Shown here: piece after piece, positions 32,392 through 35,443 of the stretch
Layout: every line of letters starts with the position of its first letter
Position numbering within the stretch: position 1 is the first letter of the stretch
DNA from: Methanothrix sp.
GTDB lineage: Archaea; Halobacteriota; Methanosarcinia; Methanotrichales; Methanotrichaceae
Direction of reading: 5' to 3'
Assembly: GCA_026394505.1 (NCBI GenBank)
Contig: JAPKYC010000183.1
Coordinates: forward strand, 1-35,465
Length of the DNA stretch: 35,465 bases
Program-made: the position numbers and the translations under genes
Notes under the pieces: generated by a model
What the model was told of the DNA's origin: nothing
The model's input: only the letters and a program-made list of their open reading frames with translations
Databases searched by the model: none

Positions 32392-32961
32392 TTAGCCACT
32401 GGTAATAACTAAATGGTTACGAACTACCACCATCGCTTCCGCTGCCCCGGCCAGGGCCTCCTCGAACTCATTCCTGTCCGAAAGGGATATGCGCGCACTG
32501 CCATGTGGATAAATCAGTTCCAGCTCCTTTCTTACCTCATGAGATGCCGGCACTCTCAATACGCGCAAGTTCTCCAGCGGCGTTTCAAAGAGGACCTTGC
32601 CTGGAGTTTTAATCCATAAAATAACTCTATGGCTGGTGATATTCCAGATGCCGGGCACCCAGCATTTGATCAGGCCCTCCTCCTCTCGCAGATATCCGAA
32701 GGCCTTGTAGAGGATCTGCTCGCCCGGAAAAAGAGGAAGATGCGTCTCCGCTCTCGCGTACAATTCCCGGCTGCTCTTATCCCAATCTTCCATTATGCCG
32801 TACTCCAGCATGGTCTCCATGCCGGCAATCATGGCCTTCAGGGTCACGCCTATCAGTGGAATGCCGGCCACAGAGATGATCAGATCGGCATTAAGAACCG
32901 CTCCTTTGTTGAGGAGCCGATCCAAAACCTCGACCAGACAACTCTCCTTTTCCGGATTCAT
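32392..32961 (-). CDS. Gas vesicle GvpA/GvpJ-family domain fused to a PH/GRAM-like C-terminal domain
   Basis: 'LVEVLDRLLNKGAVLNADLIISVAGIPLIGVTLKAMIAGMETMLEYG' (Gas_vesicle) followed by 'LFPGEQILYKAFGYLREEEGLIKCWVPGIWNITSHRVILWIKTPGKVLFETPLENLRVLRV'. Confidence 0.8.
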   Translation of the reverse strand: MNPEKESCLVEVLDRLLNKGAVLNADLIISVAGIPLIGVTLKAMIAGMETMLEYGIMEDWDKSSRELYARAETHLPLFPGEQILYKAFGYLREEEGLIKCWVPGIWNITSHRVILWIKTPGKVLFETPLENLRVLRVPASHEVRKELELIYPHGSARISLSDRNEFEEALAGAAEAMVVVRNHLVITSG

Positions 32962-33758
32962 CCCGCCCCCGAGAGACACACAAAGCTGAAGGGAGCCCAG
33001 GGGCCGGTGAACCTTACAAAGAACCCCTCCTTGCAGTTGATCTCCTCAAGGACCTCGCCCAGCTTTTTCACAGCCTCTTTTGAAACCCTGCAGGTGTAGG
33101 AGGCGAGAAGCTTCTTGCCCCTATATTTCTCGGGGGTCCAGGACGTTCTGCCGGCGGTCTTCAGCTCTTTCACCAGAGGCTTGATTTCTGAGCAAAACTG
33201 ATCTGCCAGCCAGCCCGCCTCAGAGCGGGTCAGGCTCTTCAGCTTCAGGTCCAGATTGCGCCTCTGCAAGTAGGCCTTCCCTTTGGGCTCCTTTTCGATG
33301 CTGTTCTTGAGATCCCCCAGCTCCTGATTCTTGGCCAAAACCATTTTTTCCAGATAATCATAATCGCAGTAGACCTGGATTGAATACTCCGCCGATCCTT
33401 GCATGCGCAGCAGCTCGCCGGCGAGATGTTCGTAGTCCCGGCAAAGCCAGTCTTTGACCACATCATCATCTCCCTTGATGATAACATCGAAAGAGAAGGG
33501 AAGCACGGTTCCGAACATCTTCGTGGCCTGGTCTATCACATAGCTATGCTCCAGGACCCACTCCTCAGCCAGTTTTTTGTCCTCCGTCTGGTAGGGCTTT
33601 GCCTCGCAGGCATGAACTATCGCAGCGATATCTTTGTAGGGTACTGTGTAGACGTTATTCTCCTGGATGCCGATGCTGCCCAACCGGGCCATGTGTCCGG
33701 TCCTGGCGACCGAGTAAAGGTACCTGGCCTCTTTGACCATATTTTGGGACTCCACCAT
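32958..33758 (-). CDS. Gas vesicle protein GvpL/GvpF
   Basis: 'YLYSVART', 'NNVYTVPYKDIAAIVHACEA', 'HSYVIDQATKMFGTVLPFSFDVII'; ends at the start of the GvpJ-PH gene. Confidence 0.88.
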   Translation of the reverse strand: MVESQNMVKEARYLYSVARTGHMARLGSIGIQENNVYTVPYKDIAAIVHACEAKPYQTEDKKLAEEWVLEHSYVIDQATKMFGTVLPFSFDVIIKGDDDVVKDWLCRDYEHLAGELLRMQGSAEYSIQVYCDYDYLEKMVLAKNQELGDLKNSIEKEPKGKAYLQRRNLDLKLKSLTRSEAGWLADQFCSEIKPLVKELKTAGRTSWTPEKYRGKKLLASYTCRVSKEAVKKLGEVLEEINCKEGFFVRFTGPWAPFSFVCLSGAG

Positions 33759-33786: not shown

Positions 33787-34143
33787 CTAGTCTAACTTGA
33801 GCTCCAGTATGCCGTTCTTGAAGCTTTTCATGATGATGGATTTTGCCGGCCGCGGTAGAGCTACATTTTTGCTGAACTGGCCGGCAGTTATCTTTAGAGA
33901 ATCTCCCTCCAGATCCATCTTCAAATCCTCCACGTAGACTCCGAAAAGCTCGGCAATGATCGTGATGCCGTCCTTTCCTTCCATCACGTCCACCATTCGT
34001 GGCCCATGTAGCTCAGACTCGGCCATCCCCATATCCTTCGCTCTTCTGGCAGCTCGCAAAAGCCCTTGCCGCAGAAGCCTGGTATAAACGTGCTGGGTAT
34101 GCCGCCCATTTCCCGCGTAATGGTATTTGTCTCTGCCGACCAT
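33787..34143 (-). CDS. GvpH-like/Hsp20-fold gas vesicle protein, paralogue 2
   Basis: 'VDVMEGKDGITIIAELFGVYVEDLKMDLEGDSLKITAGQFSKNVALPRPAKSIIMKSFKNGILELKLD'. Confidence 0.8.
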   Translation of the reverse strand: MVGRDKYHYAGNGRHTQHVYTRLLRQGLLRAARRAKDMGMAESELHGPRMVDVMEGKDGITIIAELFGVYVEDLKMDLEGDSLKITAGQFSKNVALPRPAKSIIMKSFKNGILELKLD

Positions 34144-34146
34144 ATC

Positions 34147-34470
34147 TCAGGACTCCTCTTTTTGGCTTTCTGCTCTCCAGCTCGCTGGGTTCAGGAACTT
34201 GTCTATCAGGTCTTCCGCGGCTAGATCCAGATCACTGCGAACCGATTGCACGGCATCTATGATGTTGTTATCGGACTTTATCTTATCAAGGGCCTCGGTT
34301 AATTCTGAGAGAGCCTGGCCCAGCCGCTCTATCTCGCAGTCGCTCAGACTTCCGCTCTCCATTCTCCTCAAAGCCTGTCGTTCCAAAAGCTCCTGGATGA
34401 TCTCCACCAATGCCACCACCAGGCCCAAAAGGCCCTCTTTCAGGTTTCCTTCATCCAGGTTGATCGCCAT
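34147..34470 (-). CDS. gvpK: Gas vesicle protein GvpK
   Basis: 'GLLGLVVALVEIIQELLERQALRRMESGSLSDCEIERLGQALSEL'. Confidence 0.92.
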   Translation of the reverse strand: MAINLDEGNLKEGLLGLVVALVEIIQELLERQALRRMESGSLSDCEIERLGQALSELTEALDKIKSDNNIIDAVQSVRSDLDLAAEDLIDKFLNPASWRAESQKEES

Positions 34471-34478
34471 TTCGGACC

Positions 34479-35060
34479 CTAGTCTAGCTTGAGATGAAGT
34501 ATGCCGTTCTTGAAGCTCTTCTCAATGATGGATTTTGCCGGCCGCGGCATTGCTATTTTCTTGCTGAACTGGCCGGCAGTTATCTCAAGAGTTTCTCCCT
34601 CCAGATTCATCAACAAGTCCTCCTCGGAGACACCGGGCAGTTCGGCAATGATGGTGATTCCGTCCTTTCCTTCCATGACATCCACTATCGGCTGCCTGTG
34701 AGGTGCGGACTTCGGCATCTCAACGCTTTCCGTTCGGGGGGCCGCCCTTCTCGCTCCATGGCCTAGCGGCCTGGTAGAAACATGATAATCGACGACAGGT
34801 TTGCTGGACCAGCCTACATCGATCCTGTGTTTTATCTCCGCGTCCGTGTCGGCAATCCTTTGCCTGAATTCGGGTGAGGACTCTTCCAGGGACTTGATTA
34901 TGCCCCCCAGACCGGGGATGAACTGGCTCACCACGTTTTGCACTATGCCCCCCACCTGAATATCCTCACTTTGCTTATGGGACCCCTTTTCCAGTTCTTC
35001 GATCCTCTTTTCCAGGCGCGCTATCTTCTCTACATCCTTATCTTTTGAGTCCTCAACCAT
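34479..35060 (-). CDS. gvpH: GvpH (Hsp20-like) gas vesicle protein
   Basis: N-terminal coiled coil, 'VQNVVSQFIPGLGGIIKSLEE', Hsp20-like C-terminus; start at MVEDSKD with GGAGAG upstream. Confidence 0.85.
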   Translation of the reverse strand: MVEDSKDKDVEKIARLEKRIEELEKGSHKQSEDIQVGGIVQNVVSQFIPGLGGIIKSLEESSPEFRQRIADTDAEIKHRIDVGWSSKPVVDYHVSTRPLGHGARRAAPRTESVEMPKSAPHRQPIVDVMEGKDGITIIAELPGVSEEDLLMNLEGETLEITAGQFSKKIAMPRPAKSIIEKSFKNGILHLKLD

Positions 35061-35077
35061 TGATATCTCTCCCAAGA

Positions 35078-35443
35078 TCAATCGTATTTTCCGAGGCTCC
35101 CCCGGATGATGGGCAGGGGTGCTGGGCTGGACCAACCGCAGATGTGACAGCCCTCTCGAATCAGCTGATCTTCATCTCTTCTGTTTCCGCATTCCGGGCA
35201 GCAGGCCTTGGGTTTGAGAGCATCTTTCCACACTGGTGCATTCAGATTGGTGCCCGCGGGCATCTCCAGGCCGTACTTGGCCGCGGTCTCAAAAGAGGCC
35301 AAAACTGCCCGAATCTTGATGCCTAAAAGCTCCGTGCCTGCCAAAGATACGGCTATATCCGCATTGATCACCAGGCCCTTGTCAAGGATTCTTTCTACAA
35401 TATCGGCAAGATTCTGGCTTCTTGTCGGCGCCAATGAATTCAT
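35078..35443 (-). CDS. Gas vesicle GvpA/GvpJ-family domain fused to a C-terminal zinc ribbon
   Basis: 'LADIVERILDKGLVINADIAVSLAGTELLGIKIRAVLASFETAAKYGLE' followed by 'CCPECGNRRDEDQLIREGCHICGWSS'. Confidence 0.85.
   Translation of the reverse strand: MNSLAPTRSQNLADIVERILDKGLVINADIAVSLAGTELLGIKIRAVLASFETAAKYGLEMPAGTNLNAPVWKDALKPKACCPECGNRRDEDQLIREGCHICGWSSPAPLPIIRGSLGKYD

Follow-up and report, generated by a model that had tools for sequence, protein, structure and literature searches.

A GvpM-type gas-vesicle protein with a very likely C-terminal PH-superfamily domain in Methanothrix and related archaea

The window analysed here is a stretch of 35,465 nucleotides from Methanothrix sp. that ends in a run of gas-vesicle genes on the reverse strand (Table 1). 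The gene of interest, gvpM, is the last gene of an operon comprising gvpJ, a gvpH-like gene, gvpK, a second Hsp20-like ORF, gvpL and gvpM. Its ATG overlaps the stop codon of the upstream gvpL by 4 bp (ATGA), and the same overlap occurs in two further loci (L049 and L056), which suggests translational coupling of the two genes; a longer reading frame starting from a GTG at position 32979 is also possible. The neighbours gvpJ, gvpH, gvpK and gvpL stand in the same order in L049, L050 and L056, and the gvp cluster of Methanosarcina barkeri has the order JHKLM (PMC9501494). Since the window equals one contig (C71) of an incomplete genome, the remainder of the gvp cluster lies beyond the contig end. 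The named relatives of the encoded protein, 74–92% identical to it, all come from Methanothrix MAGs. In Methanothrix thermoacetophila, Mthe_0071, which adjoins Mthe_0070, has already been annotated as gvpM, and the gvp genes of that organism show lower expression in growth by direct electron transfer (PMC10470525).

Two further features of the neighbourhood deserve mention. The TraB/PrgY/GumN-like gene that adjoins gvpM recurs beside the gvp clusters of L056, L158 and L049, and a partial copy lies near the gvp region of L055. The two Hsp20/GvpH-like ORFs on either side of gvpK have very similar C-terminal domains, apparently reflecting a partial duplication, and both score better with the ArsA_HSP20 profile than with that of GvpH.

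Table 1. Positions of the features discussed, in the window unless another locus is named
Feature	Position	Strand	Assignment
gvpM with C-terminal PH-like domain	32392–32961	−	189 aa + stop
GvpM shell-type domain, residues 1–67	32761–32961	−	PF00741, NF046091 and tree placement
Very likely PH-superfamily (bPH_3/GRAM/GLUE-like) domain, residues ~74–175	32437–32742	−	Profiles, relatives and model
gvpL	32958–33758	−	PF06386, E 8e-55; NCBIfam GvpL equivalog, 201.3 bits (cut-off 200)
Short Hsp20/GvpH-like ORF	33787–34143	−	PF17886 ArsA_HSP20, E 2e-4, below its cut-off
gvpK	34147–34470	−	PF05121, E 3e-20
gvpH-like, coiled N-terminus and Hsp20 domain	34479–35135	−	PF17886, E 9e-6, above cut-off; weak GvpH PF05455
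gvpJ with C-terminal four-cysteine (zinc-ribbon-like) motif CPECGN..GCHICGW	35078–35443	−	PF00741, E 3e-16; NF046090 GvpJ, E 2.5e-29
TraB/PrgY/GumN-like protein, 194 aa	31688–32272	+	PF01963, E 2e-4, below its cut-off
gvpM shortened to 80 aa	L158 7502–7744		
Putative tandem-PH GvpM, 303 aa, Streptomyces sp. SGAir0924 plasmid	L182 8467–9378		Annotated as GvpJ
ArsA/Get3-type ATPase	L153 4581–5899		
ArsA/Get3-type ATPase	L155 3935–5280		PF02374, E 1e-82
ArsA/Get3-type ATPase	L156 1472–2787		
ArsA/Get3-type ATPase	L157 7935–9797		

The N-terminal part of the protein matches the Pfam family Gas_vesicle (PF00741) at residues 9–46 (E 7e-16). Among the NCBIfam models the best is that of haloarchaeal GvpM (NF046091; residues 1–65, E 1.4e-27), and the rival models for GvpJ (7e-12) and GvpA (1e-8) are weaker. 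The protein scores 95.2 bits with NF046091 and so misses its cut-off of 109 bits, which no match among the 201 genomes of the class reaches; as the model is specific to haloarchaea, the shortfall excludes the label 'haloarchaeal GvpM' but not GvpM as such. In a small tree built from 68 columns the protein groups with GvpM, and the GvpJ outgroup is split off with full support (100/100). Judged by profiles and tree placement, residues 1–67 are a GvpM paralogue, neither GvpA nor GvpJ.

The C-terminal part was more difficult to assign. The window protein alone matches no PH family in Pfam, a direct sequence search of the PDB with it gave no PH match, and a PDB search with an HMM of 26 sequences returned nothing relevant. 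The evidence comes from the relatives, in the form of an alignment (A3) of 26 copies of the domain. Most of its members are only 25–50% identical, yet W and T are invariant in it, and E, three G, R and F nearly so. Twelve of the 26 match bPH_3 (PF14470; best E 0.0027), and one to three members match Vps36-PH, PH and GRAM. Among full-length relatives two matches exceed the curated family cut-offs, that of the L043 protein to bPH_3 (23.2 vs 23 bits) and that of the second PH repeat of L046 to Vps36-PH (PF11605; 26.8 vs 24.1). The cut-off of GRAM proper (PF02893) was reached by no relative, the best score being 21.8 vs 23.6 bits (E 1.7e-4). When the family profile was compared by hhalign with an archaeal bPH_3 profile of 17 domains, the whole domain aligned collinearly (4–102 vs 1–90) with a probability of 94.8%, while ten column-permuted profiles and a reversed one gave at most 1.3%; because the hhalign figures stem from a single pair, these controls weigh more than the E-value. 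By this comparison the PH-like match exceeds chance. The membrane-linked bacterial family bPH_2 was considered as the parent family and rejected (1.0%).

An AlphaFold2 model of the domain, built from seven sequences, has a low mean pLDDT of 57 and shows seven strands followed by a C-terminal helix, which is the order of elements in the PH topology. A Foldseek search with this low-confidence model gave PH-superfold structures for almost every one of the 50 best PDB neighbours (E from 0.03, TM about 0.3), the leading ones having PH, PTB and GLUE folds and including talin F3, Vps36 (2cay, rank 2), TAPP1, ASAP1 and Akt1. The full-length model (pLDDT 54) was too weak and was left out of the fold search. 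The assignment thus rests on profile–profile comparison, relatives and fold topology, each modest when taken singly, and residues ~74–175 very likely form a PH-superfamily domain. We regard the identity of the two domains together, GvpM plus PH type, as close to certain. The initial annotation had read the first ~65 residues as a Gas_vesicle domain and the rest as a GRAM or bacterial-PH-like fold: the former holds and can be narrowed to GvpM, and the latter stands as to the fold, in the profile match and in the order of elements of the model, but the nearest Pfam families are bPH_3 and Vps36 GLUE-PH, not GRAM proper.

Twenty-one of the 50 genomes of the order contain gvpM, in 23 copies, and the PH-like domain is present on 22 of these; the remaining copy is truncated (G001:C189 in L158), and another contig of that genome bears a tandem-PH gvpM. 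Sharing of the domain with further proteins in these genomes was rejected, as all 22 first-domain profile matches in the 50 genomes are gvpM genes and the search found nothing outside gvpM, one gvpM adding a second repeat. Class-wide, 38 of 39 GvpM matches lie in open frames of 183–362 codons, and the copies examined carry the PH-like domain, including those from loci with the M. barkeri-type JHKLM order. A sample of 100 genomes of the phylum yielded canonical GRAM in only one. A MAG chimera or a frameshift was likewise rejected as the origin of the fusion, which recurs in many genomes, among them the single- or two-contig assemblies G046, G351, G422 and G438. The PH-tailed GvpM is the standard form in gas-vesicle-bearing Methanothrix relatives and Methanosarcinia. 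The architecture had been described in the initial annotation as lying outside the standard Gvp forms; this is correct for published systems, but across methanogens the fusion is widespread and represents the normal GvpM of gas-vesicle-bearing Methanosarcinia.

Elsewhere the arrangement varies. GvpM reaches 342–377 aa, with two PH-like repeats (A3 vs the second repeat: 97.9%), in other families of the phylum, and most of these tandem-PH GvpMs of about 360 aa end in a zinc-ribbon-like motif. The four-cysteine ribbon is found both on GvpJ (as in the window) and, in similar form, on long GvpMs (L025, L044, L045 and L046), and separate two-ribbon ORFs occur in L053 and L054, a pattern of module shuffling between Gvp proteins. 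The GvpM of a Streptomyces sp. SGAir0924 plasmid, where the gvp cluster has the order J-M-K-L, aligns with the archaeal forms in two pieces that together cover 87% of the query at 35.5% identity; Pfam detects no PH domain in it, and the alignment to the archaeal forms points to two PH-like repeats. The haloarchaeal copies examined have short tails with no PH domain and score above the NF046091 cut-off.

How this distribution arose can be reconstructed only in part. On the tree the haloarchaeal forms are nested inside the PH-bearing GvpMs, and a single clade of PH-bearing GvpMs is rejected only at a borderline p-AU of 0.044 from 68 columns, so that a loss of the PH domain in haloarchaea is only suggested. 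The short GvpMs of one archaeal family carry at their ends an apparent vestige of the second repeat (EGEEVVQKEKM in L155 vs EDEEVVQKEKMW in L046), which points to PH loss in that family. With low confidence, the PH domain may be ancestral in GvpM and may have been lost at least twice. As a separate observation, an ArsA/Get3-type ATPase gene directly follows gvpM in clusters whose GvpM appears to have lost the PH repeats, and in L157 it coexists with a PH-bearing GvpM. The ATPase could act as a hydrophobic-protein chaperone for shell subunits.

The two parts of gvpM differ in the strength of selection. Among seven Methanothrix copies dN/dS is 0.08–0.33, mostly 0.08–0.2, for the PH part and 0.00–0.10 for the GvpM part, which indicates that both are under purifying selection, the PH part less tightly; these values also mark the C-terminal half as a conserved domain and not random coding sequence.

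Our preferred, still tentative reading, which falls just short of probable, is that this GvpM acts in nucleation or at the tip as a minor subunit, the methanogen form of the GvpA paralogue needed to start a gas vesicle, and that its PH-like tail serves as a protein-docking module for accessory Gvp proteins. The shell-type part would insert into the hydrophobic nucleus, or the tip, of a vesicle in formation. The tail would stay in the cytosol and bind an accessory protein, GvpL or GvpH being the likeliest; such docking would help to assemble the nucleation complex or hold GvpM in solution before it inserts. Haloarchaeal GvpM is essential in the first steps of vesicle formation (PMC8716928, PMC9501494); its residues 60–84 contact GvpF, GvpH and GvpL, and residues 1–25 contact GvpL (PMC8716928). 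The PH-like tail may then be an enlarged docking site that does the job of the short haloarchaeal C-terminal tail. In Bacillus the GvpM homologue GvpS is essential and interacts early with GvpL (PMC11445434). The near-restriction of the PH-like domain to gvpM and the overlap of the gvpM start with the gvpL stop also favour this reading. On the other side, haloarchaeal GvpM can be shortened by its last 25 aa and vesicle formation suffers hardly or not at all (PMC8716928, PMC9501494), haloarchaea and some truncated archaeal GvpM copies manage without the PH domain, and the PH part shows weaker conservation than the GvpM part, with no partner-specific surface identified on it.

The initial annotation had named the membrane as well as partner proteins as possible targets of the domain. 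PH and GRAM domains are indeed best known for lipid binding (PMC2817789), and three positions of A3 are mostly basic (the end of strand 1, 81%; R39 of the TxxR motif, 96%; the turn between strands 3 and 4, 92%), as expected if the tail bound an anionic archaeal lipid head group and held the nascent nucleus at the cell membrane. We consider this unlikely: the domain as a whole is near neutral or acidic (net charge −9 to +4, and −2 in the window protein), inspection of the window protein revealed no transmembrane segment, the gas-vesicle wall contains no lipid (PMC8716928), and the solved prokaryotic PHb domains lack a lipid-binding surface, protein binding being predicted by their authors (PMC2817789). 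By analogy, binding of a partner by the tail appears better supported than binding of the membrane. The same PHb domains assemble as C5 and C12 rings (PMC2817789), which would fit a rather unlikely scheme in which several GvpM molecules join their PH-like domains into a ring and so provide a template for the first rib or the cone tip. Tandem-PH versions exist, and GvpJ and GvpS stay on purified bicone vesicles through washing with 6 M urea (PMC11445434). Against this scheme, the solved rings are from another Pfam family, PF08000.

The tail might, finally, have no specific partner and only prevent the aggregation of a hydrophobic protein. GvpM-type proteins made alone do aggregate (PMC9501494, PMC8716928), the haloarchaeal copies examined lack the domain, and GvpS tolerates all fusions tested, including those at its ends (PMC11445434). 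Such a solubility tag seems improbable in view of the purifying selection noted above and of the conservation of W, T, R, F and G, signs of a specific fold and site, although many of these residues could be structural. A broader view, in which vesicle nucleation in methanogens is spatially organised, a single or tandem PH tail anchoring or ringing the nucleus at the membrane or a protein scaffold as an ancestral archaeal layer lost in haloarchaea, is speculative and has a low likelihood in our estimate.

As a conserved, soluble-looking and separable putative binding domain, the tail offers a bait for the partner of GvpM and a handle on the start of the vesicle, in organisms such as Methanosarcina that can be cultured and genetically modified. 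Bench work on archaeal GvpM has been confined to haloarchaeal proteins, which lack the PH domain in the copies examined. Most genetic work on archaeal gas vesicles likewise comes from haloarchaea, and the haloarchaeal gas-vesicle model may describe a reduced version. The tail also suggests a natural cargo attachment site for engineered vesicles. Full-text searches of open papers returned no account of a gas-vesicle protein with a PH or GRAM domain, though InterPro may already list the bPH_3 match automatically.

Several known systems come close. GvpM of Halobacterium salinarum (84 aa) shares the N-terminal 65 residues with their P-L-x-G and E-Y-G motifs and, as a GvpA paralogue, likewise closes a J-(H)-K-L-M gene set; unlike the methanogen protein it has only a short, apparently disordered tail. 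Bacillus megaterium GvpS, described as a GvpM homologue, is similar as an essential GvpA paralogue that interacts with GvpL, and the accessible part of its report describes no PH domain on it (PMC11445434). The neighbouring GvpJ likewise joins a shell-type domain to a C-terminal binding module, but it is a different paralogue and its tail is zinc-ribbon-like, not PH. Of the domain families, bPH_3 (PF14470) gives a full-length, collinear profile match to the methanogen GvpM domain, which differs in its longer strand 1–2 segment with the conserved W and in its place on a shell protein. The second repeat of the L046 relative exceeds the cut-off of Vps36 GLUE-PH (PF11605) and falls just short of that of GRAM (PF02893), families best known from eukaryotes.
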